DNA of 64,000 bases from Corallococcus carmarthensis (lineage in GTDB: Bacteria; Myxococcota; Myxococcia; Myxococcales; Myxococcaceae): positions 62,001 to 126,000 of the forward strand of contig NZ_RAWE01000004.1 of assembly GCF_003611695.1 (NCBI RefSeq). The letters are read 5' to 3'. Numbering within the stretch: the first letter of the stretch is position 1; every line of letters begins with the position of its first letter. Positions 314 to 16,647 of this stretch are shown one piece after another. Under the pieces are notes generated by a model. That model had not been told where the DNA came from. It did no database searches and saw nothing but the letters and a program-made list of their open reading frames with translations. Made by a program: the position numbers and the translations under genes.

Positions 314-320
314 ATTCCTG

Positions 321-970: not shown

Positions 971-1240
971 ATGAACAAGGACGCTTTCATCAGGACGCTG
1001 AGCGAAGCCCTCCAGCAAGAGCCCTCCCAGCTCGACCTGTCGAAGAGCTTCATCGACAACGGTGGTTACTCCCTCGCCGCGGTCCGTTGGATCGATTTGA
1101 TCTACCCCGCCACGGGGGTGGTCATGAACTTCTTCGACGTGATGGGCACGGAGCCGCTGCAAGCCCTGCTCGACGCGCCGCCGGAAGGAGCCTCCGCCGG
1201 TGCGGAAGCGTCCTCCGACGTGGATGAGGGCGTCATATGA
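971..1240 (+). CDS. Acyl/peptidyl carrier protein
   Basis: An 89-residue stand-alone carrier domain. The motif 'SFIDNGGYSLAAVRW' places the phosphopantetheine-accepting Ser at residue 34, in the G-G-x-S context typical of NRPS carriers. The last 20 residues are a flexible Ala/Gly/Ser/acidic tail. ATG 971 is chosen because an in-frame GTG at 938 lies inside the Cys-rich ORF and has no ribosome binding site. ATG 971 itself has no clear one either, suggesting coupling to that ORF, which stops 5 bp earlier. The stop overlaps the start of the large NRPS by ATGA (4 bp). In pathways such as clorobiocin, a free carrier next to a KAS III-like protein receives an acyl group shuttled from another PCP. 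The same role is inferred here; its cargo is unknown. Confidence 0.75.
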   Translation: MNKDAFIRTLSEALQQEPSQLDLSKSFIDNGGYSLAAVRWIDLIYPATGVVMNFFDVMGTEPLQALLDAPPEGASAGAEASSDVDEGVI

Positions 1241-4200
1241 CGTCCGCCGCCCCAACGCAGGCCCGTGCGACGGGCCCTGAGACCGCGCCCGCGGCCCTCC
1301 CGGCCGAGGCCGAAGAGGAGCTGCTGACCGCGGCGACGTACGACCTCGTCGAGGAGCTGAGCGAGGCCGGTGTCGAGCTGAGCGTGAAGGAGGGACGCCT
1401 GGCGTTCAAGGCGCCACCGGGGCGGCTCACCGACGCGCTGAAGGAGCGCATCCGCGAGCAGAAGGAAGCGCTGCTCGCGCTCCTGGGGCCTGACGAAGCC
1501 GTGCGGGCCCGCGCCCGCACGCTGCCGCTGTCGGAGCTTCAGCAGTCCTACTGGCTGGGCGAGGCCGGCACGCAGGGCATCGCCGGGGCAGGGTGTTGGT
1601 ACAACGGCTTCTCCGTGGAGACGCTGGACCTGGAGCGTCTCCAGGCCGCCCTCTCCGCGCTGTTCGCGCGTCACGACTCGCTGCGGATGACGGTGGGTCC
1701 GGACGGGCGCGGGCGGCTCCTGGAGCACGTGGGCCCCTTCCCGCTGGAGTACCAGGACCTGCGCGCGCTTCCGGCCGCGGAGGTGGAGCGGGAGCTGGAG
1801 CGCACGCGGACCACGATGAGCCGGCCCCGGAGCGGCGCGGAGGTCTGGCCGCTCTACCGGATGTGCGTGCAGCGGACCGCGGAGCGCTTCTACGTCCACG
1901 TCGAGGGCCGGCTCCTGGTGGGCGACGCGACGTCCTGGTTCCTCTACGTCGAGGAGCTGCGGAAGCTGCTGGAGGATCCCGCGCGCACGGACCTGCCCGC
2001 GCCGGGACGGCTGGCGAGCCTGATCCTGCGCCGCTTCCGGCAGCTCGTGTCGGCCGACTATCAGCGCGCCCGGCAGTACTGGGCGGGGCGTGCGATTCCG
2101 CCGTCGCCCGCGCTCCCGGTGCGCACGCTCGCCGAGGGCGGAGGCCGCATCCGGCGGTTGATCGCGGACCTGCCCGAAGCGGAGGCCACCGTGCTGACCG
2201 CCCGGGCCCGGGAGTTCGGGCTGACGCTGGACAACGCGCTGATGGGTGCGTTCGCGCTGGTGCTGGCGGAGTGGGCGCAGGCGCCGGACTTCAGCATCAA
2301 CGTCCTGCACGGCGGAGGGCGGCACCTCGGCCTGCCGCTCGGTCACTTCGGCGGCATCGTGCGCCTGGAGCTGAACGTCCGGCGCGAGGCGTCCTTCGCG
2401 GACCTGGCGGGCGCCATCCGTCAAAGGCTCGCCCTGGACATGGGCTATGCGTCCGTGGACGGCGTGACGGTGCAGCGGATCGCGGCGCGCCAGTCCGGCA
2501 CTCCGGTCCGCGCGGGCGTGGTCGCCTATTCGAGTGGCCTGGCCCTGGGCCGGTCCGACACGGAGATTGGCCTGGCGCAGCTGGGGTGGAAGCCGGAGGG
2601 CGCCAGCATCCAGAGCCCGGGCGTCCTCATCGACCAGCAGGTCTTCCGGACGCTGGACGGCCTCCGCTTCCACTGGGACATCGACGCGGACACGCTGTGT
2701 CCCGGCGTGGGCGAGGCGATGTTCGAAACCTTCCTGGCCGGCGTCCGCCGTCTGGCGGAGGCGCACGATTGGAAGACGCCCCTGCGGATGGGGCTGCCCC
2801 CAGCGCAGCAGGCCTCCCAGGCTCGCGCCAACGCCACGTCGGCGGAGCGCTCCGTCCACCGGCTCCACTCCCTGCTGGAGCGGCAGGTCCGCGGGCATCA
2901 CGGCGCGGCGGTGGTGACGCGCGAGCGGACGCTGTCGTTCCAGGAGCTGGGACAGCGCGCGAGCGGCGTGGCGAACGCCCTTCGTGCACGTGGCGCGAAG
3001 CCGGACGTCCCGGTGGCCATCGTCGCGAACAAGGGCTGGGAACAGGTGGTCGCCGCGCTCGGCACCGTCATGGTCGGCGCCCCCTACGTGCCCCTGGATC
3101 CGTCCTGGCCGTCCGCGCGCCTGTCGGCGGTCCTCTCCGCCGCTGATGTGGGAATGGCGCTGTGTGACGCCGCTGGCGCCGAGGCCCTTGCCCGGGAGGG
3201 CGGTGGTGCGGCCCTCGTGAGCCTCCGCATCGACGCGGTGCCCCTGGCCTCCATGGACGCGGCGGGTCCGGACACCGGCCAGCTGGCGTACATCCTCTTC
3301 ACGTCGGGTTCGACGGGAGAGCCCAAGGGCGTCGCCATCTCGCATGACGCGGTGGCCACCACGCTCGAGGACATCCAGCGCCGCTTCGGCGTGGGCCCGG
3401 AAGACTGCGTGCTGGGCGTCTCGCACCTGCACTTCGACCTGTCGGTCTTCGACATCTTCGGCGTCCTGGGCGCGGGAGGCCGGCTGGTGCTGCCTCCGCC
3501 CGCCAGCCACCCGGATCCCGCGGAGCTGTTCCCGCTGGTGCAAGAGCACCGCGTGACGGTCTGGAACACGGTGCCGGCGATCATGGAGATGCTCGTCGAG
3601 TACATGGAGTCGCGGGGCCTCCAGGCGCCGTCGCTGCGGCTCGCGCTCCTGTCGGGAGACTGGATCCCGGTCACGCTGCCCGCACGGATCCGCTCGGTGT
3701 TCCCGAACGCGCGCGTGGTGAGCCTGGGCGGCGCCACCGAAGCGTCCATCTGGTCGAACGCGTTCGAGGTCCAGGACGTTCCGGCCACCTGGTCCAGCAT
3801 CCCCTACGGCTTCCCGCTGGCGAACCAGCAGCTGCTGGTGTTGCACCCGGGCGTGGGCACACCCTGCCCGGACTGGGTCGAGGGCGAGCTGGCCATCGCG
3901 GGGCAGGGGCTCGCGGAGGGCTACTGGCGTGCACCGGAGAAGACGGCGGCGGCCTTCGTCACGCATCCAGAGACCGGCCAACGGCTCTACCTCACCGGCG
4001 ACCGCGCCCGCCGCTGGCCCGACGGCAACATCGAGTTCCTGGGCCGGACCGACGGCCAGGTGAAGATCAGCGGCTACCGGGTCGAGCTGGGTGACGTCAC
4101 CGCGGCGCTGAAGAAGTGCCCGGCCGTGGACAAGGCCGTGGTCGTGGCCGTGGGGCCGCGTGAGCACCGCTGGCTTGCCGCCTTCGTCACGCCCACGGGC

Positions 4201-5397
4201 GCGGAGCCGCCAGAGCTGCGGGACATGCTGTCCGCGCTGCTGCCTTCGTACATGGTGCCGCGCCGGATCCACTGGCTGCCGGAGCTGCCGCTCACCGCCA
4301 ACGGCAAGGTGGACCAGGCGAAGCTCCGCGAGCTCGCGCTGCTCGACCAGCCCGTCACGCTGGCGCCGCGCACGCCCGCCGAGCACCTGATGGCGGAGCT
4401 GTGGTCGCAGATCCTCGGCCGCCCCATCCGCGACACGCAGGTGAGCTTCTTCGAGGTGGGCGGTGAGTCGGTGCTGGCGGTCCGGCTCGCGAACGCCATC
4501 GAGCACCGCACCGGCGTGCGCCCCGAGCTGGCGGAGCTGCTGCGGACCGCGACCATCGAGGGCATGGCGCGGGTGATGGGCGGCCAGCGCGGTGGGGCGC
4601 ACAGCGCGCTCGTGCGCATGCAGCGGGGCGCGGAGGGCGCGCCCACCGTCGTGTGCATCCACCCCGTCGGCGGCACCGTGTACTGCTACCGCGAGCTGGT
4701 CGACCTCCTGGGCAAGCGGTTCACCGTCGTCGGGCTCCAGTCGCTGGGGCTCGAACGCGGGGACCTGTCGCTGCGCGACCTGGCGGCTCACTATGTCGAA
4801 CAGCTGGACAGCGCGGGGCTCAAGCCCGACGTGCTCTTCGGCTGGTCCCTGGGCGGCGCCGTCGCGCTGGAGGTCCAGCGCCGCCTCGAAGTCCGGGGAA
4901 CGCGCCGGGTCGCCGCCGTGCTCGTCGACCCGTGGGTCCGGAAGCCCGCCGCTTCCAAGCCGGAGATGAAGGCCCTGGAGGCGGCGTTCATCCGCGACGT
5001 CCTGCGCGGCGCCGGCACGCTCAGCCTGGAGGCGCTGGCCGAACGGCTGCGGACGCGCTCGCTGCCGGAGGTCGTCCAGTCCCTGGGCGGCGACGGACTG
5101 GCACAGCGTGCGCGCGGCTCCGAGCTCGCGGCGCTGTTCGAGCAGTTCCGCCAGAACACCTCGGCGCTGCTCGGCTACGACCCGCCCGACGGTCCCGTCG
5201 ACGCGGACGTGTGGTTCGCCGACGCGCAGCGGCCCGAGGACTTCCCGCACCTCCAGCCGTTGGACCAGTGCCGTCAGGTGCCGCGCGTCCACCGCGTGCC
5301 CGCGGATCACTACGGCATCATGGAAGGTGACGCGTTGAAGCGCATCGCCGCGGCCTTGCGGAGCCGGTTCGAAGTCACCCAGGAGGCCGCGTCATGA
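1237..5397 (+). CDS. NRPS: TubC docking - Cy-like condensation - A (Cys) - PCP - thioesterase
   Basis: 1386 residues. A TubC-type N-terminal docking domain spans about residues 26-85. The condensation domain (about 92-520) is of the heterocyclization class: 'PLSELQQSYWLG', 'YWAGRAIPPSPALP' and 'SPGVLIDQQVF' match Cy-specific cores, and no HHxxxDG is present. In the DxxxxDxxS core the first Asp is replaced by Arg ('RLLVGDATS'). The A domain (about 540-1040; P-loop 'TSGSTGEPKG', A10 'TANGKVD') reads DLFNLSLIWK by hand alignment to GrsA, one residue from the Cys code DLYNLSLIWK. A PCP ('FFEVGGES') lies near residue 1075. A thioesterase follows with GWSLGG (Ser1204) and a C-terminal His1358. Expected job: load Cys, acylate and possibly cyclise it, then release. 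It overlaps its neighbours by 4 bp on both sides, so the operon is translationally coupled. Whether a thiazoline forms is uncertain because of the Asp loss. Confidence 0.88.
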   Translation: MTSAAPTQARATGPETAPAALPAEAEEELLTAATYDLVEELSEAGVELSVKEGRLAFKAPPGRLTDALKERIREQKEALLALLGPDEAVRARARTLPLSELQQSYWLGEAGTQGIAGAGCWYNGFSVETLDLERLQAALSALFARHDSLRMTVGPDGRGRLLEHVGPFPLEYQDLRALPAAEVERELERTRTTMSRPRSGAEVWPLYRMCVQRTAERFYVHVEGRLLVGDATSWFLYVEELRKLLEDPARTDLPAPGRLASLILRRFRQLVSADYQRARQYWAGRAIPPSPALPVRTLAEGGGRIRRLIADLPEAEATVLTARAREFGLTLDNALMGAFALVLAEWAQAPDFSINVLHGGGRHLGLPLGHFGGIVRLELNVRREASFADLAGAIRQRLALDMGYASVDGVTVQRIAARQSGTPVRAGVVAYSSGLALGRSDTEIGLAQLGWKPEGASIQSPGVLIDQQVFRTLDGLRFHWDIDADTLCPGVGEAMFETFLAGVRRLAEAHDWKTPLRMGLPPAQQASQARANATSAERSVHRLHSLLERQVRGHHGAAVVTRERTLSFQELGQRASGVANALRARGAKPDVPVAIVANKGWEQVVAALGTVMVGAPYVPLDPSWPSARLSAVLSAADVGMALCDAAGAEALAREGGGAALVSLRIDAVPLASMDAAGPDTGQLAYILFTSGSTGEPKGVAISHDAVATTLEDIQRRFGVGPEDCVLGVSHLHFDLSVFDIFGVLGAGGRLVLPPPASHPDPAELFPLVQEHRVTVWNTVPAIMEMLVEYMESRGLQAPSLRLALLSGDWIPVTLPARIRSVFPNARVVSLGGATEASIWSNAFEVQDVPATWSSIPYGFPLANQQLLVLHPGVGTPCPDWVEGELAIAGQGLAEGYWRAPEKTAAAFVTHPETGQRLYLTGDRARRWPDGNIEFLGRTDGQVKISGYRVELGDVTAALKKCPAVDKAVVVAVGPREHRWLAAFVTPTGAEPPELRDMLSALLPSYMVPRRIHWLPELPLTANGKVDQAKLRELALLDQPVTLAPRTPAEHLMAELWSQILGRPIRDTQVSFFEVGGESVLAVRLANAIEHRTGVRPELAELLRTATIEGMARVMGGQRGGAHSALVRMQRGAEGAPTVVCIHPVGGTVYCYRELVDLLGKRFTVVGLQSLGLERGDLSLRDLAAHYVEQLDSAGLKPDVLFGWSLGGAVALEVQRRLEVRGTRRVAAVLVDPWVRKPAASKPEMKALEAAFIRDVLRGAGTLSLEALAERLRTRSLPEVVQSLGGDGLAQRARGSELAALFEQFRQNTSALLGYDPPDGPVDADVWFADAQRPEDFPHLQPLDQCRQVPRVHRVPADHYGIMEGDALKRIAAALRSRFEVTQEAAS

Positions 5398-6335
5398 GGA
5401 TCGGTGCGTTCACATGGCGGCTCGGGGAGCGGCGGGAGATCGACTCGCTGCCCGAGCTCGCGTCGGATGCGCGAAGGCTCCAGCGCATGAAGAAGCACGG
5501 GCTGGCCTGCTTCATGGAAGCGACCCAGTCCCGCGAAAGCCTGATGGTGGAGGCGCTCCAGGCCTCGGTGCGCGAGTCGGGGATGGATCCGCTGTCCATC
5601 GACACCGTCATCTACGCGACCGGCACCTTCGATGACCGCGAGGACGCCACGCTGATGCCCGTGGTGCTGCGCCGCTGTGGCCTGCTGAACGCGCGCCCCA
5701 TCGGGGTCTTCCTGGGCTTCTGCGCGAACTTCACCTACGCCTTCGAGGCCATCGAAGGGCTGCGCGCGCTGGGCCGCTCACGCAACGCGCTGCTGCTCTT
5801 CAGCGACGCGTACCCCGCGGGACGCACGCGGCTCATCCGCCAGGACTCCGCCGTCGGCAGTGACGGCGTGGCGTGCTGTGTCGTGTCGGACGCGCTGGAG
5901 CGCGGCTACGACGTGGGGCCCGTCCGGCATCACTACGACGCCCAGGCCACCGAGCACCTGGAGACGGGGGACATCGTCTCGTACGTCCGTGCGTACTCGA
6001 ACGGCGTGCGCACGTCCGCGGAGGCCGCGCTGGCGGCGGCGGAGGTGGGCGCGGCCGAGTGCCGGTGGCTGGTGACGGCGAACTTCAACCGCTCGGTGCT
6101 GCGCAACATCTCGGAGCTCTGTGGCATCGGGGTGGACCGCATCTACGACCGGAACATCGGCGAGCTGGGCCACTGCAGCTCCGCGGATCAGTTGATTGCC
6201 CTGGGCCAGCTCCTGGAGTCGGACCTTCCGGCCGCCACGCCGGTGCTGGTGACGGGGCCCGCGGACACCGTCTGGGGCGCGGCCGCGATGCGCGTCGTCC
6301 GGCCCGCGCCCACGCCCACGCGGGAGGCCCGGTGA
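5394..6335 (+). CDS. KAS III-like (FabH-fold) acyltransferase/ketosynthase 1
   Basis: 313 residues with thiolase fold. Cys110 in 'LGFCANFTYAF' occupies the FabH nucleophile position. The FabH 'HQAN' segment is 'ANFN' here: the catalytic His is lost and the Asn kept. At the FabH 'GNTS' Asn position there is His260 ('LGHCSSADQLI'). The second KAS III-like protein of the operon (9352-10263) shows the same rearrangement, so it is a subfamily trait and not decay. Canonical FabH decarboxylates malonyl-ACP using His and Asn; without them, acyl transfer between carrier proteins or onto a hydroxyl or amine (as for CloN2- or CerJ-type relatives) is more plausible. ATG 5394 overlaps the NRPS stop by 4 bp, and the next gene overlaps the stop by GTGA. 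Substrate unknown. Confidence 0.75.
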   Translation: MRIGAFTWRLGERREIDSLPELASDARRLQRMKKHGLACFMEATQSRESLMVEALQASVRESGMDPLSIDTVIYATGTFDDREDATLMPVVLRRCGLLNARPIGVFLGFCANFTYAFEAIEGLRALGRSRNALLLFSDAYPAGRTRLIRQDSAVGSDGVACCVVSDALERGYDVGPVRHHYDAQATEHLETGDIVSYVRAYSNGVRTSAEAALAAAEVGAAECRWLVTANFNRSVLRNISELCGIGVDRIYDRNIGELGHCSSADQLIALGQLLESDLPAATPVLVTGPADTVWGAAAMRVVRPAPTPTREAR

Positions 6336-7900
6336 CCATGCTGCTCTCCGACTTCCTCCTCCAGCACGGCAGGACCGCGCCCGAGCGCGACGCATTGGTG
6401 CACGACGGCGTCCGCTGGGACCACGCCCGGCTGGCCGCCGAGGTCGCCCGTTACCGGACCGCGCTCGCGGAGCTGGGCCTGGGACGCGGTGACCGCGTCG
6501 TTTCGCGTATGGAGGCCGACCCCGACGCCATCGCGTTGCTCATCGCCACCATGGCGCTGGGGGCCGCGTACGTGCCCGTGGCGCCGGAGCTTCCCCCAGC
6601 GCGCTTCGAGGCCATCCTCGCGCGGCTGGAGCCCGCCGCAGTCGTCGTGTCGAGCGACCTGCGCGACGCGCCGGGCGTTCCCCCTGGCACGCAGGTGGGG
6701 CCGCTGGTGGTGGCCCGCACGGCCCATCCCGTGAGCGGCGACACCACCGCGCCGGGCCCGGAGGACGCGGCCTACATCATCATGACGTCGGGCTCCACGG
6801 GACAGCCCAAGGGCATCGTGATGACCCACGGCGCCGCGGTGAACACGCTGCGCGGGTTCAGCGAGCTTGGCGTCCCGTCCTCCGCGCGCGTCGGGACCAT
6901 CTCTCCGCTCCACTTCGACTTCGCCATGTTCGACGTAGGCATGGCGCTCGGCAACGGGGCCACGCTGGTCCAGGTGCCGCGCATGCTGGCGTATCAGCCC
7001 CGGGGACTCGTCGAGTACCTGGACGAACACCGGGTGACCCAGATGCACTCCGTGCCGTCCGTGTGGCGTCCGCTCCTCACGGAAGGGGACGCGTCGCTGC
7101 TCGGGGGCCTGCGCCACCTGGACACCATCCTCTACGCCGCGGAGAGCTTCCCGGCGAAGGACGTCCACACCCTCCAGGGCTGGCGGCCGGACCTGCGCAT
7201 CGTCCAGTGCTTCGGCCACTCGGAGTCCATCGGCTGCTGCTTCAAGACGTTCGCCAACCCGGCGGCCACCTTCAAGGGCCGGCTCTCCCTGGGAGTGGCG
7301 CTGCGCGGCACGGAGATGTTCGCGCTGGACGAAGCCGGCCGGGAGATTGGAGTGGGGGAGGAGGGCGAGCTGTACGTGCGCGGGCCGCACCTCTTCCGAG
7401 GCTACTGGCGCGACGAGGCGCAGACCCGTCAACGGCTGGTGCCGGATCCGCGCACCGGTGAGGGCGCCGTCTTCCGCTCCGGCGACGTGGTGACGCGCGA
7501 CGAGCAGGGCGAGTTCTATTTCATCGGCCGGCTGGATCATCAGGTGAAGGTCGGTGGCAACCGCGTCGAGCTCTCCGAGATTGAACACGTCGTGGAGGGA
7601 GACCCTGACGTCGCGGCGGCGGTGGCCGTCGTCCCGGCGGACGAGGCGCGGGCCACCCTCACGTGCTTCGTCGTCGTGCGTGGCTCGAAGCCGTGGAACG
7701 AGCTGATGGTCCGCCTGCGCTCGCGCATGTCGGCCGCGATGCCCCGCTACATGGTCCCGCGTCACCTGCGGCGGCTCGAGTCCTTCCCGGTGCTGTCCAA
7801 CGGCAAGGTCGACCGGCTGCGACTCGCCCAGATGGCCGCCGAACCGGAGGCCCCGGCGCCGCTCCGGACGCCTCGCAACCCATCCCTGGAGGTCCCATGA
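6332..7900 (+). CDS. Free-standing adenylation enzyme 1 (amino/aryl acid-AMP ligase)
   Basis: 522 residues from GTG 6332 (GGGAGG at 6321-6326; GTGA overlap with the previous stop). ATG 6338 is a possible alternative. It is a complete A domain without fused PCP: P-loop 'TSGSTGQPKG', 'FRSGDVV' (A7-like), 'GRLDHQVKVGGNRVE' (A8) and 'LSNGKVDR' with the A10 Lys. The hand-read pocket code is about D-F-F-H-L-A-C-G-C-K, which matches no substrate I know; the starting Asp suggests an alpha-amino group. A 4-bp ATGA overlap joins it to a free PCP (7897-8166) and then a P450. This order suggests it loads that PCP and the P450 oxidises the tethered residue, as in known A-PCP-P450 beta-hydroxylation trios. 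The substrate assignment is open. Confidence 0.85.
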   Translation: MTMLLSDFLLQHGRTAPERDALVHDGVRWDHARLAAEVARYRTALAELGLGRGDRVVSRMEADPDAIALLIATMALGAAYVPVAPELPPARFEAILARLEPAAVVVSSDLRDAPGVPPGTQVGPLVVARTAHPVSGDTTAPGPEDAAYIIMTSGSTGQPKGIVMTHGAAVNTLRGFSELGVPSSARVGTISPLHFDFAMFDVGMALGNGATLVQVPRMLAYQPRGLVEYLDEHRVTQMHSVPSVWRPLLTEGDASLLGGLRHLDTILYAAESFPAKDVHTLQGWRPDLRIVQCFGHSESIGCCFKTFANPAATFKGRLSLGVALRGTEMFALDEAGREIGVGEEGELYVRGPHLFRGYWRDEAQTRQRLVPDPRTGEGAVFRSGDVVTRDEQGEFYFIGRLDHQVKVGGNRVELSEIEHVVEGDPDVAAAVAVVPADEARATLTCFVVVRGSKPWNELMVRLRSRMSAAMPRYMVPRHLRRLESFPVLSNGKVDRLRLAQMAAEPEAPAPLRTPRNPSLEVP

Positions 7901-8166
7901 CACGTGAAGAATTTCAGGCGAACATCATCCAGTACCTCGCGACCCAGGCGTCCCTCCCCGAGGGCTGGTCCTGCGGCCCCAAGGAGAACCTCTTCGACCT
8001 GGGCGTGTTGGAGTCGTTCGACCTGCCGCGCCTGGTCGCGCACATCGAGCGGATGCTGGACCGCCGCGCGGACCTGAAGTCCCGCCGCAGCGAGGTCTTC
8101 TTCACGCTCGACACCATGTACGAGGCCTTCGTCGGCGCCTCCAAGGAGGGCTCGTGCGCTCCCTAG
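7897..8166 (+). CDS. Free-standing peptidyl carrier protein
   Basis: An 89-residue carrier. 'NLFDLGVLESFDLPRL' resembles the F-D-x-G-x-x-[DE]-S phosphopantetheine site of stand-alone PCP/DltC-like carriers, with Ser40 as attachment site. It overlaps the upstream adenylation gene by 4 bp (ATGA) and the downstream P450 gene by 13 bp, so the three are almost certainly co-translated. The likely cargo is the aminoacyl group made by the enzyme at 6332-7900, presented to the P450. The KAS III-like proteins may later move the acyl group to the NRPS or to the carrier at 971. Confidence 0.8.
   Translation: MTREEFQANIIQYLATQASLPEGWSCGPKENLFDLGVLESFDLPRLVAHIERMLDRRADLKSRRSEVFFTLDTMYEAFVGASKEGSCAP
8143..8150 (+). 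promoter_or_regulatory. Strong ribosome binding site (AAGGAGGG) for the P450, inside the PCP gene
   Basis: AAGGAGGG lies within the last codons of the PCP gene, 3 nt before GTG 8154. It supports the GTG start and the 13-bp gene overlap. Confidence 0.6.
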
Positions 8167-9308
8167 ATTTCCTGTCCACGGACTACCTGGAGAATCCGTG
8201 GCCGCTCTACGCGCATTACCGGCGCGAGCAACCCATCTGGTGGTCGGACGAGATCCGGATGCACTGCGTGTTCCGCTACGAGCACGTGCACGCCATCCTC
8301 AAGGACCCGCGCTTCACCGTGGAGTTCCCCTTCCGCATCACGGAGGAGCTCTTCGGCCGGACGCTCATCGACATGGAAGGGCCGGAGCACCTGCGGCTGC
8401 GCCGGAAGGTCGCCCCGCTGGTGGGCAACGCCAACCTCGCGATCTTCGCGCGTGAGGTGTCCGAGCCCCGCATCACCGCGCTGGTCCGCGCCGCGGCGGA
8501 GCAGCCGCCCATGGAGTTCATGCGCGCCATCGCGGAGCGCGTGCCCACGCTGATGATCTCCGAGTTCCTCGGCTTCCCGCTGGAGGACGAGCGCTGGCTG
8601 TTCGAGCAGATGATGATCCTGATGGACCACCTGGACGGGAAGCGGGGCAACCGTCAGGAGGTCTATGACGTGCACACCGCGGTGAGCGCGTGGCTGGACG
8701 GCATCATCGCGCGGCTCCTGAGCGAGGGCCCGGGCACGCGCGGCTTCAAGCGCCTCATCGACGGCATCCGCGACGAGACCCCGGAGACCATCAAGATCCT
8801 CTACTGGACCTTCCTGGCCGGAGGCATCGAGACCTCCATGTGCCTGCTGGGCAACGCGGCCACGGTGCTCTCGCGAAACCCGTCCTGGTTCGAGCAGCTG
8901 GCCACCGTGCCGTCCATGGCGCGCGCCATCCTGGATGAGGTCCTCCGGTTCGAACCGGTGCAGGCGTCCACCGTGCGCTTCGCTTCGGAGACCCTCGAAC
9001 TGGGGGGCGTCACCATCAAGCGGGGCCAGGCCGTGAACCTGCTGCTCGCCAGCGCCGCGCGGGACGACTCCACGTTCGCGTCACCCGACGTGTTCGATCC
9101 CACGCGGACGCTGTCCAACTCCCTGTCGTTCGCGGTGGGCCCGCACGCGTGCGTCGGGAAGACCTTCACGATGATGAACGCGGAGATCACCCTGCGCACG
9201 CTCTGGAACACGTGGCAGGGCGTCCAGCCGGTGGAGGACGCCCCCGCGATCATCCGGGGCGCGTCGTTCCGCAAACCCCACGCACTCTTTCTCAAGGCGA
9301 AGCACTGA
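8154..9308 (+). CDS. Cytochrome P450
   Basis: 384 residues, soluble bacterial class. The heme loop 'FAVGPHACVG' fits F-x-x-G-x-H-x-C-x-G, with Cys333 as proximal ligand. The I-helix is 'LAGGIETS' (A-G-x-x-T class; acidic Glu followed by Thr). The K-helix region is 'DEVLRFE' (E-x-x-R). GTG 8154 is supported by a strong ribosome binding site. Immediately after a free PCP, the most likely role is hydroxylation or desaturation of a PCP-bound amino acid, a common arrangement for NRPS-recruited P450s. No ferredoxin or reductase gene is nearby, so electrons must come from elsewhere. Direct oxidation of the released product is the alternative. Confidence 0.92.
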   Translation: MRSLDFLSTDYLENPWPLYAHYRREQPIWWSDEIRMHCVFRYEHVHAILKDPRFTVEFPFRITEELFGRTLIDMEGPEHLRLRRKVAPLVGNANLAIFAREVSEPRITALVRAAAEQPPMEFMRAIAERVPTLMISEFLGFPLEDERWLFEQMMILMDHLDGKRGNRQEVYDVHTAVSAWLDGIIARLLSEGPGTRGFKRLIDGIRDETPETIKILYWTFLAGGIETSMCLLGNAATVLSRNPSWFEQLATVPSMARAILDEVLRFEPVQASTVRFASETLELGGVTIKRGQAVNLLLASAARDDSTFASPDVFDPTRTLSNSLSFAVGPHACVGKTFTMMNAEITLRTLWNTWQGVQPVEDAPAIIRGASFRKPHALFLKAKH

Positions 9309-9351: not shown

Positions 9352-10263
9352 ATGATTTTCGTCAACGGCATTCGTTATGTCCTGGGTGAGTCCAGGCCCA
9401 TCAGCAGCGTCCCCGAACTGGGAGGCGACGAGGCAGCGATCAAGTTCCTGGCGGACCGGGGCTTCAAGAACTACCGGCACTCGACGGTGGAGGCGTGGGA
9501 GCTGGGCGTGGACGCCGCGCGCCAGGCCATGCAGGCCGCGGAGGTCACCGTCGCGGACATCGACCAGGTCATCTACGCGTCGGTGAGCTCCCGGACCCCC
9601 GCGCACGGCGACCTCTCCATCGGCCTGTTTGCCCACCGCATGGAGATGCTGACCACGCCCATCACCGGCGTCTGCTTCGGTGAATGTACCAACGCGATGC
9701 TCGGCATCGAGCACGCCGCCATGCTGCTGGAGACTGGGAGGGCGCGCACCGTTCTGCTGGTCTCCACCGACGTCGCATGTAGCAAGGAACAGCGCGTCAC
9801 CACGGGACAGACCATCTGTTCCGACGGTGCCGCCGCGTGTGTCATCACGCGTGAGCCGCGAGGCTCGGCCGTTCCTTCCTTCGAGCTGCTCGGCTTCGCC
9901 AAGGCGTTCCACCACCTGTCGCGCGCAGGCATGTCCAACCCCGCGAAGAGCTTCCGCGACATCTGCGGCGCCGCCATGCGGTGCAAGAAGACGGTGCTGG
10001 CGAAGATCGACAAGCCGCTGGCGAAGTGGATCCCCAACACGGCGAACAGCGAAGTGGCCGGCGCGCTCGCGAGCGTGCTGGGCATCCCCGCGAGCATGTT
10101 CTACCTGGACAACCTCCCCGAGTACGCGCACGTCTTCTCCACGGACCAGCTGATCAACCTGGTGGACTGGGCGACGCGCTCGAAGGCGCCCTCCGGCTCC
10201 GTCGTCGCGGGGCTCGCCACGGGAACCTCCGGCAGCTCCGTCGCGGCCTGGCGGGTCGTCTGA
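9352..10263 (+). CDS. KAS III-like (FabH-fold) acyltransferase/ketosynthase 2
   Basis: 303 residues. Cys112 in 'FGECTNAMLGIE' aligns with the FabH nucleophile. The 'HQAN' segment reads 'NTAN', so the catalytic His is replaced by Asn. His260 ('YAHVFSTDQLI') occupies the FabH Asn274 region, exactly as in the protein at 5394-6335. GAGGAA precedes ATG 9352. The two proteins are clearly diverged from each other, suggesting separate acyl donors or acceptors rather than a simple duplicate. Expected to act on carrier-bound thioesters in the cytosol, either transferring the oxidised residue from the PCP at 7897 or joining it to a second carrier. A true condensing activity is less likely given the missing His/Asn pair, but not excluded. 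Confidence 0.75.
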   Translation: MIFVNGIRYVLGESRPISSVPELGGDEAAIKFLADRGFKNYRHSTVEAWELGVDAARQAMQAAEVTVADIDQVIYASVSSRTPAHGDLSIGLFAHRMEMLTTPITGVCFGECTNAMLGIEHAAMLLETGRARTVLLVSTDVACSKEQRVTTGQTICSDGAAACVITREPRGSAVPSFELLGFAKAFHHLSRAGMSNPAKSFRDICGAAMRCKKTVLAKIDKPLAKWIPNTANSEVAGALASVLGIPASMFYLDNLPEYAHVFSTDQLINLVDWATRSKAPSGSVVAGLATGTSGSSVAAWRVV

Positions 10264-10297
10264 CGCGAAGCGCCCGCTGACTCCGGTGAGCCCTCCG

Positions 10298-11881
10298 ATG
10301 CAACGTCCGAACGCCCAGTCCGTCCGGCCCCTGGCCGAGACCTTCGCGCACATCGCCGCGGCCCGTGGGGACCATCCCGCGGTCGTGGGGCCACGCGAAG
10401 CGGTGTCCTATGCCGCGCTCCAGCGGAGCGTGGTGTCGCTGTCCAGCGGGCTCGTGGGCCGGGGGCTGGAGGGCGCGGTCATCGGCATGCTCCTGCCGAG
10501 CGACCTGGCCTACGTGGCCACCATGCTGTCCATCCTGGACCGGCGAGGCGTCTTCGCCCCCATGGATGCGGCATGGCCGGAGGCCCGGCTGCGCTCCGCG
10601 CTGGAGATGACGCGGCCGGCGGCCCTGGTCATCACGCCGGAGCAGGCCGAGCGTGTCAGCGGGCTCGTAGCCACCCTGGGCTCACCGTGCGAGCTGCTGG
10701 TGGTGGAGGGCCGGGCGGCGGAGGGCTTCCGCTTCAACACCGTGAGGGCCGCGGCGGAGGCACATCCGCAGCACAATGACCTCACGGCGCCGTGGACGGA
10801 GGACTCGCTCTACCTCGTCTACACGTCGGGCTCCACGGGCACGCCGAACGCCGTCGAGGGCTCCCACCTGTCGCTCGCCGTCTTCATCGAGTGGCAGGCG
10901 CGCACCTTCGAGGTCGGTTCGGAGTGCCGTGTCTCCCAGCTCGCGCCCACCACGTTCGACGTGAGCCTGCGGGACTTCTTCCTGCCGCTGTGCACGGGCG
11001 GCACGCTCTACATCCCGGCCGCGGGCACCCGCTACCATCCCATCCTGTTTCCGCGCTGGGTGGCCGAGCACCGCATCAATCTGATGCACTCGGTGCCTTC
11101 GGTGTTCAAGCTGGCGTCGGAGGTCAGCTGGACGAACGCGAAGCTGAAGGGTTCGTTCGACTCCCTCCGCAAGCTGTTCCTGTCCGGCGAGCGCCTCTAC
11201 GTGGAGGACGCCCGGCAGCTCCAGGCGCACCTCTCCCCGGATGCGCAGCTGATCAACTTCTACGGGCCCAGTGAGTGCACGCTCATCAAGACGTGCTTCG
11301 TCGTGCCCCGGGATTGCAGTGGCCTGGAAGGCGACGTGGTGCCGCTGGGCCGGCCCATCGAGGGCTGCGAGGTCCGGCTGGACGGCGGCACTGATGCGCA
11401 GTCCGGCGAGCTGGTCCTGGAGTCGGAGTTTCTCGCCAAGGGTTACTACCGGAACCCGGAGCTGACGGCCGCGAAGTTCTCCAGCGTGGCGCGGCCGGAC
11501 GCACCCAGGCTGCGCGCGTACCGCACGGGAGACCTGGGCTACCGCGATGGCCAGGGCCTGCTCCACTTCACCGGGCGCAAGGACCATCAGATCAAGGTCA
11601 ACGGCAACCGGGTGGAGCTGGGCGAGGTGGAGCACTGCCTCCGGCGCATGCCCGGCGTCAGCGGCGCGGTGGTCGTGGCCAGCGACTCGCGTCAGGGCGC
11701 GGATCCCATCCTGTCCTGCGTCTACGCGAGCGACGGCGACCTCGCCGAGGACCAGGTCCGCGCGCACCTGCTCCAACACCTTCCCAAGTACATGGTCCCC
11801 ACGAATGTCAGGCGGATGGGCGAACTGCCGCTGCTGACGAACGGCAAGGTCGACCGCAAGCAGATCGCCTCACTTTTCTAA
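10298..11881 (+). CDS. Free-standing adenylation enzyme 2, P-loop Lys missing
   Basis: 527 residues from ATG 10298 (GGTGAG 7 nt upstream); GTG 10286 is a possible alternative. It is a complete A domain: 'YTSGSTGTPNAVEG' (A3), 'FYGPSECT' (A5), 'YRTGDLG' (A7), 'GRKDHQIKVNGNRVE' (A8) and 'LTNGKVDRK' (A10, catalytic Lys present). The A3 loop has P-N-A where P-K-G is usual, so the phosphate-loop Lys is lost. The pocket code reads roughly D-V-R-H-F-S-F-L-I-K, not one I recognise; an Arg at position 239 would put a positive charge in the pocket and could favour an acidic or oxidised substrate. It is followed after 17 bp by a PCP-C protein, whose N-terminal carrier is the likely partner. Confidence 0.85.
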   Translation: MQRPNAQSVRPLAETFAHIAAARGDHPAVVGPREAVSYAALQRSVVSLSSGLVGRGLEGAVIGMLLPSDLAYVATMLSILDRRGVFAPMDAAWPEARLRSALEMTRPAALVITPEQAERVSGLVATLGSPCELLVVEGRAAEGFRFNTVRAAAEAHPQHNDLTAPWTEDSLYLVYTSGSTGTPNAVEGSHLSLAVFIEWQARTFEVGSECRVSQLAPTTFDVSLRDFFLPLCTGGTLYIPAAGTRYHPILFPRWVAEHRINLMHSVPSVFKLASEVSWTNAKLKGSFDSLRKLFLSGERLYVEDARQLQAHLSPDAQLINFYGPSECTLIKTCFVVPRDCSGLEGDVVPLGRPIEGCEVRLDGGTDAQSGELVLESEFLAKGYYRNPELTAAKFSSVARPDAPRLRAYRTGDLGYRDGQGLLHFTGRKDHQIKVNGNRVELGEVEHCLRRMPGVSGAVVVASDSRQGADPILSCVYASDGDLAEDQVRAHLLQHLPKYMVPTNVRRMGELPLLTNGKVDRKQIASLF

Positions 11882-11898: not shown

Positions 11899-13536
11899 TT
11901 GTCCACCGACACAGCGCAACGTCTTGCAACGCTTTGCAAAGAGATTCTGAGGATCGACCACGTCCGGCCGGAGGCCTCCCTGGTGTTGCAGGGCGCGTCC
12001 TCCATGCGCCTGATGCAGCTGGTCGCGCGCCTCTACGAGGACTTCGACGTCATCGTGGACCTCAGCGAGGTCATGGGCGAGGTGACGCTGGATTGGATCG
12101 CCGCCATGGTCGAGGAGCGCCGCGCGGCGGACGGCGGCGGTGCGGCGCCCACGCCGGCCCTGGCGGAGGAGGCCCGGCGTCCCGCGGGAGGGCCCGTGCC
12201 CCTCAGCGAGCTCCAGCTCGCCTTCTGGGAGATGCGCCGCTACGCGCCGGCGATGGCCGCGTACAACGAGGGCGTCAGCCACCTGGTGAAGGGCGACCTG
12301 GACCTGGCCGTCTGCAAGAAGGTCCTGGTGGAGCTGGTCGCGCTCCAGCCCGCGCTGCGCAATGCCTACCTGGAGGTGGACGGCGTCCCGGTGCAGCGCG
12401 AAGTGCCCATGGCGGAGATCGAATCGTCCCTCAAGCTGGAGGTGACGGACCTGTCTGCGCATCCGGATCCGATGGCCGAGTGCGCCGCGCAGCACCGGGC
12501 CATGTACGCGACCCGGTTCGACCTGTCCGCGCCGCCATGCTTCCGCGTCGCCGTGTGGAAGGTGGGTGAGCGGCGCTGGGTGGTGTCGTGGGTCGTGTAC
12601 CACATCGTCACGGACTGGTGGGCGGTGGACGTCCTGCGCCGCGGCGCCGCGAAGCTGTACCGCGCGCTGATGGCGGCGGGAGTCCCGGAGTCGCGCCCGT
12701 CCGCGGTGCCGCAGGATCCGCACGCCGGCACGCGCTTCACGGCGGACGACGAGGCCTGGTGGTTGGCGAAGTTCCAGACGCCGCCGCGTCCGTTGACGCT
12801 GTCCAGCCGTCCCCGGCCGCTGATCAAGAGCTACGCCGGTGAGATGTACCTCCAGGAGCTCCAGGGCATCTCCGCCAGCCGGATGGAAGGCCTGCGCGAG
12901 CGGCTGGCCGTCACGATGTCCAGCCTCACCTACGCGGCGTTCTCGCTCCTGCTCGCGGCGCTGAGCGGCGAGGACGACGTGACGGTGGGCGTGCCGTTCC
13001 TCAACCGCCAGCACGCCGACGTGCAGGACACGGTGGGCCTGTTCGTCAACAGCCTGCCGGTGCGCATGAAGGCGGAGCACGGAGTTGCCGCGGGCGACTA
13101 CATCCGCGCGTGTCACGGCGAGCTGCTGGAGGCCTTCCGCCACGGGCGCTATCCGTCGTTCCGGCTGATGCGCCAGCTCAAGCTGCCGACGCGCTTCAAC
13201 CGGGCCCCGCTCTACGACCACCTCTTCAGCTACTACGAGAACACCGTCGTGGACGTCGTCTGCGACCAGACGAAGCTCGCGGTGACGGAGATCGAGCTGC
13301 CGCGCGGCACGAGCAAGTACGACCTGAGCCTGTTCGTGACCCGGACCGGGGACCGGCTCGACTGCAAGGCGGAGTACACCACCGCGCTCTTCTCCCAGGA
13401 GGAGACCGCCGCCTTCGTCTCCCACTACCAGGCCCTCCTCGAACGGCTTCTGACCGACTCCAGCGTGACGGTGGGCGAGCTCCTCGCCACGGTGCGCGCG
13501 CGCGTCCAGCACTCCCTTCCCCAGCAGCGGGCCTAG
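11899..13536 (+). CDS. NRPS didomain: PCP - condensation
   Basis: 545 residues from TTG 11899 (GGAG at 11889-11892, 6 nt upstream). Residues about 1-75 form a carrier domain with 'LQGASSMRLMQLV', Ser35 being the likely phosphopantetheine site. From about residue 95 ('PLSELQLAFWEM') to the end is a condensation domain with 'YHIVTDW' (His235): the catalytic second His and the Asp of HHxxxDG are kept, the first His is Tyr and the Gly is Trp. 'DTVGLFVNSLPVRM' is a typical C-domain core. No A domain is fused; the neighbouring free A enzyme (10298-11881) probably loads this PCP. The C domain probably joins an upstream acyl group to the PCP-bound unit, or passes it to the Cys NRPS, whose docking domain needs a partner. 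Confidence 0.85.
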   Translation: MSTDTAQRLATLCKEILRIDHVRPEASLVLQGASSMRLMQLVARLYEDFDVIVDLSEVMGEVTLDWIAAMVEERRAADGGGAAPTPALAEEARRPAGGPVPLSELQLAFWEMRRYAPAMAAYNEGVSHLVKGDLDLAVCKKVLVELVALQPALRNAYLEVDGVPVQREVPMAEIESSLKLEVTDLSAHPDPMAECAAQHRAMYATRFDLSAPPCFRVAVWKVGERRWVVSWVVYHIVTDWWAVDVLRRGAAKLYRALMAAGVPESRPSAVPQDPHAGTRFTADDEAWWLAKFQTPPRPLTLSSRPRPLIKSYAGEMYLQELQGISASRMEGLRERLAVTMSSLTYAAFSLLLAALSGEDDVTVGVPFLNRQHADVQDTVGLFVNSLPVRMKAEHGVAAGDYIRACHGELLEAFRHGRYPSFRLMRQLKLPTRFNRAPLYDHLFSYYENTVVDVVCDQTKLAVTEIELPRGTSKYDLSLFVTRTGDRLDCKAEYTTALFSQEETAAFVSHYQALLERLLTDSSVTVGELLATVRARVQHSLPQQRA

Positions 13537-13539
13537 GCC

Positions 13540-14790
13540 ATGCACAAATCCTTTGGAAACCTCGATGCGGCCTGGAAGGAAGCCTCCTTCGCGTACAAGA
13601 GCGTTCCGTTCTTCCGGAACCGGCCCTCCCTGACCCCCGCGGCCTCGCCCGCGGCGGGCTTCCTCGACATCCCGATGACGAGCAAGCCGGACTACCGGAA
13701 GAACTTTCCGGCGGGAGTCCTGGCGGATGGCCGCTCGGTCAACGACCCCTACGTGCAGCGGTATCAGAGCTCGGGGACGAGCGGCGACCGGCTGGTGAGC
13801 GTCATCCACGCGTTCAAGCTCGCGGACCGGATGGCGAACTGCCTCTCCGTGAACAAGAGCCTGAGCTTCCTCCTGGATGAGCCGAAGATCCGGATGTGCC
13901 GCTACGCGGCGCCCAACTGTTCGGACGTCGAGTGCAGCAACCCGAACACGCGCATGGAGGACCGCATCCTCCAGGACGGCACGCTGGTGCTGCCCGTCTA
14001 TCACGACCTGCTCACGACGCCGGAGCCCATGCTCAAGCGCGCGTTCGACGAGCTCCACTCGTACGAACCGAACGTCTGGTACGTGGACCCGATGCACCTG
14101 TCGGTGCTGATCAAGAAGGCCCGCGCGTCCGGCTGGAAGTTCGACATGAACCGCAAGGTGTCGGTGCTGCTGACCTACACCTTCGCGACGCAGGCGTTGC
14201 TGCGGCAGCTGGCCACGCTGTGCGAGGGCCACTTCCCGGTGGCCTCCGTGATGGCGATGTCCGAGTTCGGTTTCGTGGGGCTCGCCTGCGAGGAGGGCAA
14301 CCTCCACCTCAACGACAAGGACTACTACCTCGAGTTCATCAAGATGGAGGCGCCGGACGACCGCGACGACCTCTGGGAGCTGGTCATCACGAGCGTGGGG
14401 GACAAGCTGTGTCCGCACATCCGCTACCGCACCAATGACATCTACCGGCTCCTGGGACAGTGCAAGTGCGGCAGCGCGATGCCCGCCGTGGCCTTCCAGG
14501 GGCGCGTGAAGGACCTGGTGAGGCTGCCCAGCGGCCGCTACGTCACGCCCGGCGAGCTGGATGCGCTGGTGGGCGCGCCCCGGTGGATCGACATCTTCCA
14601 GCTCACCTTCCAGAAGGCCGGCAACTTCATCTTCCGCTACAGCGGTGAGGTCGAACCCAACGCGGACGAGCTGGCCACGCTGCGCTCGAAGCTGGAGGAC
14701 CTGCTGGAGTCGAAGTCACTCCGGATGGAGGCGGTCCACTACTTCCCGTTCGAGCGCGGGGGCAAGTTCCAGTTGGTCAGGACGGGGTGA
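13540..14790 (+). CDS. PaaK/F390-synthetase-like AMP-dependent ligase
   Basis: 416 residues, three bases after the PCP-C stop. The nucleotide loop is 'YQSSGTSGDR' (S-S-G-T-[ST]-G). 'HIRYRTNDIYRL' and 'FQGRVKDLVRL' correspond to A7/A8 of the ANL superfamily, but the overall pattern is that of phenylacetate-CoA ligase/coenzyme F390 synthetase relatives, not an NRPS A domain. A C-K-C-G motif (near 14461) precedes A8, and further Cys residues cluster near 13890-13940; such Cys sets can bind a metal in relatives. 'GGKFQLV' near the end may hold the A10-type Lys. Probable role: activate a carboxylic acid, probably aromatic or acyl, as adenylate and pass it to a carrier such as the one at 971. Substrate unknown. 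Confidence 0.75.
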   Translation: MHKSFGNLDAAWKEASFAYKSVPFFRNRPSLTPAASPAAGFLDIPMTSKPDYRKNFPAGVLADGRSVNDPYVQRYQSSGTSGDRLVSVIHAFKLADRMANCLSVNKSLSFLLDEPKIRMCRYAAPNCSDVECSNPNTRMEDRILQDGTLVLPVYHDLLTTPEPMLKRAFDELHSYEPNVWYVDPMHLSVLIKKARASGWKFDMNRKVSVLLTYTFATQALLRQLATLCEGHFPVASVMAMSEFGFVGLACEEGNLHLNDKDYYLEFIKMEAPDDRDDLWELVITSVGDKLCPHIRYRTNDIYRLLGQCKCGSAMPAVAFQGRVKDLVRLPSGRYVTPGELDALVGAPRWIDIFQLTFQKAGNFIFRYSGEVEPNADELATLRSKLEDLLESKSLRMEAVHYFPFERGGKFQLVRTG

Positions 14791-14832: not shown

Positions 14833-16062
14833 ATGATGGCTTTCGGCTCCAATGACTTGATCACCTCCGGCGCGGTGCGGGAGGACTTCCCCATCCTCAC
14901 GCGACAGGTGGATGGCGAGCGGTTCGTCTACCTGGACAGCGCTGCGACGGCGCTGAAGCCGCGGTCGGTGATTGACGCGGTGACGCGCTACTACACGGAG
15001 TGCACGGCGAACATCCACCGCGGGCGCCACCGCCTGTCGGAGGAGGCGTCCGACCTCTACGAGGAGGCGCGCGGCAAGGTGGCGCTGATGGTGGGGTGCG
15101 CGAGCAACGAGGTCATCTTCGTGCGCAACACCACGGAGGGCCTGAACCTGGCGGCCTCCTGCATGGGGCTGAAGAAGGACGACCTGGTCGTCGGGTTCCT
15201 GGACGCGCACCACTCGCAGCTGCTGCCGTGGATGCGGGGCGCGAACTACCAGGTGGTCCGCCAGGGCCCGAACTGGCAACCCGACCTGGACCACTACGCG
15301 GAGCTGTTGCGGCGGCGGCCCAAGGCCGTGGTGGTGACGCATTGCTCGAACGTCACGGGCGGCTTCCTGCCGCTGGAGACGATCTCGAAGATGGCGCACG
15401 ACGCAGGGGCGCTGGTGGTGGTGGACGCGGCCCAGTCCGTGGCGCACTGCCGCCTGCGGTTCACCGAGTCCAACATCGACTTCCTCGCGCTGTCGGCGCA
15501 CAAGATGCTGGGGCCGTCCGGCATCGGCTGCCTGGTGGGACGGGCTTCGCTGCTGCGGGACGCGGAGGCGGTGCTGGTGGGCGGCGGCGTCGTGGACTTC
15601 ACCACGCTCGAGTCCTTCCAGTACCGGAAGATCCCCCACAAGTTCGAGGCGGGAACGCCGGCCATCGAAGCCGCCTTCGGCTTCGCCGCGGCCATCGACT
15701 ACCTGGACATGGTGGGCCTGGAGCGCATCCAGGCGCACGACCACGAACTGTCGCGGGCGTTCCTGGAAGGGCTGAAGCGCAGGCCCCGGCTCAAGCTGCT
15801 GGGGCCCGACGTGGCGGAGGCCCGCGCCCCCATCTTCAGCCTCTACGTGGACGGCCTGGAGGACCTCTCCGACGTGAGCCGCGCGCTGAGCGACGCGCAT
15901 GGCGTCATGTGCCGCAACGGGCACCTGTGCGCGCAGCCTCTGGTGGACCACTACACCAGCGGCGAGGTCCTGCGGATGTCCGCCTATCTCTACAACACCG
16001 TCGAGGAAGTCGAGTACGCGCTGAGCGCCCTGGACGAAGTGGTCCGGGTCTACCAGCGGTAG
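14833..16062 (+). CDS. SufS-type cysteine desulfurase (class V aminotransferase fold)
   Basis: 409 residues. 'LALSAHKMLGPSGIG' carries the PLP Lys (Lys224). 'RNGHLCAQPL' carries the catalytic Cys366 in the R-x-G-H-x-C context of SufS/CsdA. 'YLDSAATALKP' and 'NIHRGRHRLSEEAS' are also family signatures. The enzyme takes sulfur from L-cysteine as a persulfide, leaving alanine. No SufE, IscU or Fe-S assembly gene is nearby, so it is probably a pathway-dedicated sulfur donor (as in some thiotetronate and thio-natural-product clusters) and not housekeeping. It lies 42 bp after the PaaK-like gene and 18 bp before the flavoprotein gene, same strand. A Cys C-S lyase or aminotransferase role on a carrier-bound residue is an alternative. 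Confidence 0.85.
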   Translation: MMAFGSNDLITSGAVREDFPILTRQVDGERFVYLDSAATALKPRSVIDAVTRYYTECTANIHRGRHRLSEEASDLYEEARGKVALMVGCASNEVIFVRNTTEGLNLAASCMGLKKDDLVVGFLDAHHSQLLPWMRGANYQVVRQGPNWQPDLDHYAELLRRRPKAVVVTHCSNVTGGFLPLETISKMAHDAGALVVVDAAQSVAHCRLRFTESNIDFLALSAHKMLGPSGIGCLVGRASLLRDAEAVLVGGGVVDFTTLESFQYRKIPHKFEAGTPAIEAAFGFAAAIDYLDMVGLERIQAHDHELSRAFLEGLKRRPRLKLLGPDVAEARAPIFSLYVDGLEDLSDVSRALSDAHGVMCRNGHLCAQPLVDHYTSGEVLRMSAYLYNTVEEVEYALSALDEVVRVYQR

Positions 16063-16080
16063 CGGAGGAGGGGACACGCG

Positions 16081-16647
16081 ATGAACAACATCTACGAGGA
16101 GATCAGCCCCAAGCTGCGCGACTTCATCGCGAACCAGAAGATGTTCTTCGTCGCGACGGCTCCGCTGTCCGCGGACGGGCACGTCAATCTGTCGCCCAAG
16201 GGCCACGACTCGCTGCGGGTGCTCGATGCGCACCGCGTCGCCTACCTGGACCTGTCGGGGAGCGGGGTGGAGACCATCGCGCACCTGCGGGAGAACGCCC
16301 GCATCTGCATCATGTTCTGCGCCTTCGACGGGCCGCCGAAGATCATCCGGCTGCACGGACGGGGGCGCGTGTTGACGCCGGAGCAACAGCCGGAGTTCGG
16401 CGAGCTCCTGTCGCTCTTCCCCGACCTGCCAGGGGGGAGGGCCATCATCGTGGTGGACGTGACCCGCATCGCCGGCTCCTGCGGGTTCTCCATCCCGCGC
16501 TACGAGTTCGTGGAGCAGCGCGACCAACTGGTGAAGTGGGTCAACAAGAAGGGACCGGACTGGTTGGCTGACTACCGCAAGAAGAACAACGCGGTGAGCA
16601 TCGACGAGCTGCCCGCCATCGATCCCGACCCGGAATCCGGCGACTGA
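16081..16647 (+). CDS. Pyridoxamine 5'-phosphate oxidase-family flavoprotein (split beta-barrel)
   Basis: 188 residues. The order 'KLRDFIANQKMFFVATAP', 'DGHVNLSPKG', 'ENARICIMFCAFDGPPKIIRLHGRGRV' fits the PNPOx-like FMN/F420-binding split-barrel fold. Its last third ('VKWVNKKGPDWLADYRKKNN') is a typical helical tail of this uncharacterised subfamily. It is the last gene of the operon, 18 bp behind the desulfurase. It may oxidise or reduce a biosynthetic intermediate, for example thiazoline to thiazole; that is speculation. General PLP salvage to serve the desulfurase is another option, though the PNPOx substrate residues are not recognisable. Confidence 0.75.
   Translation: MNNIYEEISPKLRDFIANQKMFFVATAPLSADGHVNLSPKGHDSLRVLDAHRVAYLDLSGSGVETIAHLRENARICIMFCAFDGPPKIIRLHGRGRVLTPEQQPEFGELLSLFPDLPGGRAIIVVDVTRIAGSCGFSIPRYEFVEQRDQLVKWVNKKGPDWLADYRKKNNAVSIDELPAIDPDPESGD

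Follow-up and report, generated by a model that had tools for sequence, protein, structure and literature searches.

The window, a stretch of 64,000 nucleotides from Corallococcus carmarthensis (contig NZ_RAWE01000004.1, positions 62,001 to 126,000 of the forward strand), contains an NRPS operon whose last genes encode a putative PaaK-like acyl-adenylating enzyme, a SufS-like cysteine desulfurase, and a PNPOx-type flavoprotein (Table 1). Genes from 1237 to 16647 follow one another closely (intergenic gaps from -13 to +43 bp), which bears out the earlier note in placing the desulfurase at the end of an NRPS operon.

Table 1. Predicted genes of the operon and of the cassette leading into it, in window positions
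Feature	Position	Strand	Basis
FAD-dependent oxidase, 3' end (DAO family), predicted hydrazinoacetic-acid cassette	1..267	+	PF01266, 91.9 bits; starts upstream of window
GNAT acyltransferase, putative AzsS/DobB-like role	276..818	+	PF00583, 54.2 bits; role by comparison with available parts of PMC10445470 and PMC13061610
Small carrier-protein-like ORF	971..1240	+	GGYS motif only; no Pfam match
NRPS: TubC_N docking, heterocyclization-type condensation, Cys-type A domain, carrier, thioesterase	1237..5397	+	Pfam, A code
KAS III-like protein 1	5394..6335	+	Pfam/NCBIfam, PDB; Cys kept, catalytic His lost (by eye)
Stand-alone A domain	6338..7900	+	PF00501, 225.6 bits on enclosing ORF
Small carrier-protein-like ORF	7897..8166	+	Sequence only; no Pfam match
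Cytochrome P450 with heme-Cys motif	8154..9308	+	PF00067, 71.6 bits; motif by eye
KAS III-like protein 2	9352..10263	+	Pfam/NCBIfam; Cys kept, His lost (by eye)
Stand-alone A domain (AMP-binding and C-terminal domain)	10286..11881	+	PF00501, 174.2 bits
Carrier protein fused to condensation domain	11899..13536	+	PF00550, 32.6 bits; PF00668, 212.8 bits
PaaK-like acyl-adenylating enzyme, recurring desulfurase partner	13540..14790	+	Weak NCBIfam/PDB matches, AMP-forming motifs
SufS-like (group II type) cysteine desulfurase, PaaK-paired subfamily	14833..16062	+	Aminotran_5, TIGR01979, active-site residues, clade
PNPOx-type flavoprotein, operon member but not conserved partner	16081..16647	+	PF01243

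The nine-residue code of the NRPS A domain, DLFNLSLIW, is of the Cys type, and the pattern DL[FY]N[LM]SLIW is common to the window, Nonomuraea, Vibrio, and Klebsiella pC696_1 clusters. Code positions were placed by eye following the PheA numbering, with the tenth residue assumed to be Lys in each code. The code DLYNLSLIW is assigned to L-Cys in a table in the available part of PMC3777966. The condensation part of this NRPS matches the Cy domains of EpoB, Irp2, and BmdB, with Arg in place of the first Asp of the DxxxxD motif. The two KAS III-like proteins are likely to carry out carrier-to-carrier acyl transfer because they retain the Cys and have lost the catalytic His.

Upstream, and mostly beyond the window, are genes encoding a Lys/Orn-type N-hydroxylase (Lys_Orn_oxgnase, 346.6 bits), a MetRS-like protein, a C45 peptidase (204.4 bits; cut-off 85), an AMP ligase, a transporter, a cupin (Cupin_2, 57.1 bits), and the FAD oxidase (DAO, 91.9 bits). 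The MetRS-like gene scores 468.7 bits against a cut-off of 551 and is assigned by domain only (tRNA-synt_1g, 145.1 bits). Across the 20 kb upstream (locus L010, 11050-20000) and window positions 1-5397, a putative hydrazinoacetic-acid cassette of the azaserine/triacsin type leads directly into the desulfurase operon. By domain, azaserine/triacsin-type genes are present for the Lys N-hydroxylase, cupin, MetRS-like protein, FAD oxidase, GNAT acyltransferase, AMP ligase, C45 peptidase, and KAS III-like protein, and these, together with a Cy-A-CP NRPS, are alike in the azaserine cluster azs as described in the available part of PMC10445470. Judged from its domain content, the gene set is the predicted hydrazinoacetic-acid set of azaserine and related clusters (PMC10445470 and PMC13061610, available parts).

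The window cluster differs from azs, as far as PMC10445470 is available, in its Cys-type A code (Ser in azs, AzsO), in the Arg at the first Asp of the heterocyclization motif, in carrying the cupin and MetRS-like proteins as separate genes, in a contig without an acyl-CoA dehydrogenase, and in the addition of PaaK, SufS, PNPOx, and two extra A domains. None of the 23 matches to the acyl-CoA dehydrogenase (AzsF/Tri22) in the genome is on C444, the contig that carries the cluster; the PNPOx flavoprotein may stand in for the missing enzyme. The operon combines the putative hydrazinoacetic-acid cassette with a Cys-type NRPS module, so its product may unite N-N and sulfur chemistry by joining an N-N unit, cysteine, and extra sulfur. 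On Nostoc plasmid pn4 (locus L131, 3221-12915), genes for a cupin, an FAD oxidoreductase, an acyl-CoA dehydrogenase, an A domain, and a KAS III-like protein resemble a hydrazone-type cluster.

Downstream, genes with an FGE-sulfatase domain and for a MauG-type di-haem peroxidase (16854-19660) adjoin the operon in three Corallococcus genomes, and at 1e-100 the FGE-sulfatase-domain gene is found in those same three of 16 Corallococcus genomes only. Positions 20780-64000 carry, on the minus strand, an ABC transporter gene (domain-scanned) and ORFs of 4116, 1523, and 8229 aa that resemble NRPS genes by size alone. Nucleotide matches to two related loci (L027 and L028) end at 19702, and the block from 20780 to 64000 is apparently unshared at that place.

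The desulfurase and its neighbors

Both ORFs that the earlier note had read as a SufS-like desulfurase and a flavoprotein were found between 14833 and 16647, and their Pfam matches agree with that reading; the desulfurase ORF (409 aa) lies exactly where it had been placed. It matches Aminotran_5 at 354.5 bits (cut-off 21.5), as a SufS-type member of the class-V PLP enzymes, and TIGR01979 at 394.5 bits, below the curated cut-off of 475.1. Its active site is complete (Lys224, Cys366, His127, Asn173, Asp198, Gln201, and Arg381), and it has GHLC where GHHC is usual. The enzyme is like the SufS family of TIGR01979 in overall sequence, PLP Lys, catalytic Cys, and substrate-binding residues. It differs in its sub-cut-off score, a shortened loop after Trp133, a one-residue insertion, the lack of the SufU-type His, and a partner that is PaaK instead of SufE or SufU. 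Type II desulfurases rely on SufE, SufU, or CsdE partners, according to the available part of a review.

The PaaK-like protein has no Pfam match, and its PaaK-type NCBIfam matches are weak and far under their cut-offs (TIGR02155, 40.7 bits; cut-off 646.3). Its distant PDB relatives include PaaK ligases (4r1l at E 1.6e-12). Residues S78-G79-T80, R295, D300, G321-R322, E405, and G408-K409 are invariant in five aligned homologues, and we take them to be the AMP-forming motifs of ANL adenylate-forming enzymes. An AlphaFold model built from three sequences only has a mean pLDDT of 38.9. Two further loci (L083 and L085), which lack SufS, have a PaaK-like domain with alpha/beta-hydrolase-like and PqqD-like regions in one ORF (by eye).

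The flavoprotein ORF (188 aa) starts 18 bp after the desulfurase and matches PNPOx_N (PF01243) at 44.2 bits against a cut-off of 28.1. No PNPOx homologue was found near other PaaK-SufS pairs, and the idea of the flavoprotein as the functional partner of the desulfurase was rejected on this lack of conservation. The emphasis that the earlier note put on the flavoprotein thus shifts to the PaaK-like gene upstream, which is the recurring partner.

Recurrence of the pair and a SufS subfamily

PaaK-SufS pairs occur in Corallococcus, in four other myxobacterial lineages, in Nonomuraea, and on Vibrio, Klebsiella, and Rhizobium plasmids. Used alone as query, the window PaaK matched nine of 195 Myxococcota genomes at 1e-15. 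Three are Corallococcus, all paired; in the other six, SufS adjoins the match in three (G155, G027, and G096) and is absent in two (G183 and G012), and one match (G141) runs into a contig end. A profile made from five such proteins, some of them paired members, matched 34 of the 195 genomes at 1e-20 and added one further pair (G090). Paired members went into this profile, and the high rank of paired PaaKs in it is therefore by construction. At 27 PaaK-like loci, viewed over match flanks of about 1.5 kb each (shorter where a contig ends), SufS adjoins in four and is absent in 22, with one cut by a contig end. Seven of the 22 unpaired loci were viewed over longer stretches (up to about 9 kb per side; one on a 5.6-kb contig), and no SufS was found there. 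PaaK-like genes without an adjacent SufS are thus common, and pairing marks a subset of the PaaK-like family.

Plasmids carry several of the pairs. The window PaaK matches seven of 72,556 plasmid records, and a class-V enzyme follows it in all five examined: Nonomuraea gerenzanensis, Vibrio coralliilyticus pOCN014, Klebsiella pneumoniae pC696_1 and pKPN-8c6e, and Rhizobium binae p6 (the remaining two, from Rhodococcus and Streptomyces, were left out). The window SufS matches five plasmid records at 1e-70, and its best four (Nonomuraea, Vibrio, and the two Klebsiella records) are identical to the best four for PaaK among the 72,556. In Vibrio and Klebsiella the pair ends an NRPS operon, with its genes 1 bp apart or overlapping by 4 bp, and a serine O-acetyltransferase gene follows it in Vibrio and Klebsiella pC696_1. 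As a control, 50 SufS-type loci (L029-L078) were chosen regardless of PaaK, and four PaaK queries found no match at 1e-6 in the viewed stretch of any of them. E. coli genomes held no near match to the Klebsiella pair. An additional cysteine--tRNA ligase gene, possibly a self-protection copy, adjoins the Vibrio cluster (locus L120, 22172-23542).

Other pairs lie in different surroundings, and five have no NRPS in view. Three of these (L086, L084, and L115) are accompanied by ATP-grasp, radical SAM, peptidase C26 or S51, and GCS2 genes, and a fourth (L082) by an amidohydrolase gene; the fifth (L122) has no biosynthetic neighbor in view. A third conserved component was considered and rejected: a 135-aa ORF at the Rhizobium pair and a 129-aa ORF at the L082 pair are unlike by eye, and neither matches Pfam.

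Paired SufS-like proteins form a distinct group. A tree was made of 39 sequences, 11 paired (three of them near-identical Corallococcus copies) and 28 unpaired, with 27 full-length representatives drawn from 50 non-Corallococcus loci after removal of near-copies, fragments, and some of the more distant matches; one of the two Klebsiella plasmids was included here and in the PaaK tree. The 11 paired proteins group as a single clade (support 96/88; 94% of 200 bootstrap trees; none of 500 shuffles as low). From Trp133 to residue 137, four residues lie between in all 11 paired members and eight to nine in all 28 unpaired ones, a loop deletion, and an additional residue before Asp354 is present in 11/11 paired and 2/28 unpaired sequences, a near-private insertion. 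The SufU-type His, whose position is presumably that of BsSufS His342, which binds the SufU zinc in B. subtilis, is found in none of the paired and in 16 of the 28 unpaired proteins. Its loss is consistent with sulfur transfer that bypasses SufU but is not diagnostic, because 12 of the 28 unpaired proteins likewise lack it. Cys366, Lys224, Asn173, Asp198, Gln201, and Arg381 are kept in all 11 paired members and His127 in ten (Asn in the other); Arg361 is Ser in three. All seven paired members that were scored fall under the TIGR01979 cut-off of 475.1 (346.6-425.2 for the six besides the window enzyme), whereas six of seven controls exceed it (557.2-608.6) and one archaeal control scores 464.7.

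The PaaK tree has 20 sequences, including ten of the 22 unpaired loci, the contig-cut one, and a single Corallococcus row. On it, pairing requires five changes, a number matched or undercut in 63 of 500 shuffles, and a single change suffices in none of 200 bootstrap trees; the paired PaaKs are therefore not one clade. Within the NRPS-associated branch, the branching order is the same in the PaaK and SufS trees.

A proposed role in thiocarboxylate formation

With modest confidence, we favor a reading in which the PaaK-like and SufS-like enzymes form a two-protein cassette that would make a thiocarboxylate for a natural product without a sulfur-carrier protein. PaaK would use ATP to convert a free carboxylic acid into its acyl-adenylate, while the SufS-like enzyme would draw sulfur from L-cysteine to form a persulfide on Cys366. 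This persulfide would attack the acyl-adenylate, bypassing SufU, SufE, and IscU, and a thiol reductant would then free the acyl thiocarboxylate. The observed basis is the gene pairing, the intact active-site residues and AMP-forming motifs, the missing SufU-type His, and the private subfamily marks; from these we infer the reaction, the order of its steps, and the reductant. Pairing across unrelated clusters would be best explained by both enzymes acting on one acid, on the assumption that chemically different clusters share the same reaction; PaaK could instead load a carrier or CoA. The earlier note had proposed two destinations for the sulfur. Delivery to the adenylate made by the PaaK-like enzyme gains comparative support from adjacency in several phyla and from the private SufS subfamily, and it remains a proposal from sequence. 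Delivery to a carrier-bound thioester leaves the pairs without an NRPS in view (L082, L084, L086, L115, and L122) unexplained.

Thiocarboxylates are made by the ThiF/ThiS and Uba4/Urm1 systems, in which an acyl-adenylate reacts with a persulfide and the acid is the C terminus of a protein. The chemistry proposed here is alike in using adenylate and persulfide, but a small acid would be expected as substrate, and no Ubl carrier stood out among the annotated genes of the window operon. Photoxenobactin and piscibactin share with the proposed product the thiocarboxylate end of an NRPS product; there, the thiocarboxylic acids of such NRPS metallophores are attributed to C-S cleavage off-loading in the available parts of PMC9396620 and PMC12421891, and the word "desulfurase" is absent from the main texts of both papers. 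No description of a PaaK-SufS cassette was found in the literature searched, whose coverage missed most subscription journals, so this silence is weak evidence of novelty. The type of chemistry is already known, and its two-protein use on small acids appears to be new.

A broader version of the cassette reading is more tentative, and we consider it possible but somewhat doubtful. On this view, the pair may be a thiocarboxylate synthase of two enzymes that is widespread and has been borrowed by different natural-product clusters, its SufS subfamily being dedicated to the task and having given up SufU and SufE. In Corallococcus its substrate might be a scaffold that contains a hydrazine or hydrazone; a thioacid placed next to a diazo or hydrazone group there could even cyclize, for example to a 1,2,3-thiadiazole or another S-N-N ring. 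If the cassette reading is correct, the pair would be a portable route by which small carboxylic acids receive sulfur with no sulfur-carrier protein involved. The pair together with the private SufS loop deletion would mark clusters for thioacids, metal-binding termini, and sulfur heterocycles, and the pair would offer a direct test of a group II desulfurase working without SufE or SufU.

Class-V PLP enzymes have diverse roles, and FGM3, which we take to be the class-V protein of a fungal cluster, is a distant PDB match of the desulfurase. The two enzymes might therefore have separate jobs. PaaK would be an ordinary ligase that loads an acid onto a carrier or CoA, and the SufS-like protein, rather than donating sulfur to the adenylate, would use its PLP to convert an intermediate, in a C-S lyase or another class-V reaction. 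The scores of paired members under the SufS cut-off and the existence of PaaK-like genes without an adjoining SufS are in keeping with this division. We nevertheless judge it rather unlikely, given that the catalytic Cys, Lys, Asn, Asp, Gln, and Arg381 are retained in all 11 paired proteins, that the pair recurs in unrelated clusters, and that a cysteine-supply gene adjoins it in two of them.

Thiotetronate biosynthesis offers another precedent for a cysteine desulfurase serving a natural product. In the available part of PMC5518548, stuS/stuJ and tlmS/tlmJ are described as a desulfurase with a thiouridylase-like partner, located apart from the cluster, and Cys-PCP is proposed as the TlmS substrate. 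By similar logic, the Cys-type NRPS module, whose A domain is common to the window, Nonomuraea, Vibrio, and Klebsiella pC696_1 clusters, would offer carrier-bound cysteine from which the desulfurase strips sulfur for insertion elsewhere. Carrier-bound cysteine cannot be the general donor, however, because several pairs (the same five loci) have no NRPS in view. The thiotetronate desulfurase resembles NifS and is encoded at its own locus, according to the same part of PMC5518548, while the window partner is a PaaK-like enzyme within the operon, and no thiouridylase-like sulfurtransferase is among the annotated operon ORFs. We regard this explanation as highly unlikely.

Other sulfur genes of the genome

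The source assembly (530 contigs) was searched for further sulfur genes. A second SufS is encoded on contig C125, adjoined by SufU and two SufB/D-type genes, and contig C210 has a NifU_N gene beside a class-V match, a pair that from its arrangement looks like IscU and IscS. SufE was not detected at E 0.001 in the assembly, and NifU_N/SufU-type genes were detected only on C125 and C210, none of them in the window, in line with the earlier claim that no SufE/IscU-type acceptor is encoded there. An orthologue of the window desulfurase (E <= 1e-95) is present in three of 195 Myxococcota genomes, all Corallococcus. The earlier note had tied a housekeeping role to this gene being the only sufS of the genome; with a second SufS beside SufU and SufB/D and an orthologue in so few genomes, that argument therefore fails, and the role was rejected because the SUF set is present on C125. 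The related idea that the desulfurase works in the assembly of Fe-S clusters or other cofactors and is in the operon incidentally draws on its general similarity to SufS, and it is largely refuted and extremely improbable in view of the SUF set elsewhere, the occurrence of the gene in just three of 16 Corallococcus genomes at 1e-95, and the lack of a detected acceptor gene within the window. The serC gene upstream (locus L010) was considered as a dedicated cysteine-supply gene and rejected, because the genome search detected one copy only. In the SufS search, the closest relatives of this genome were Corallococcus exercitus and C. interemptor.
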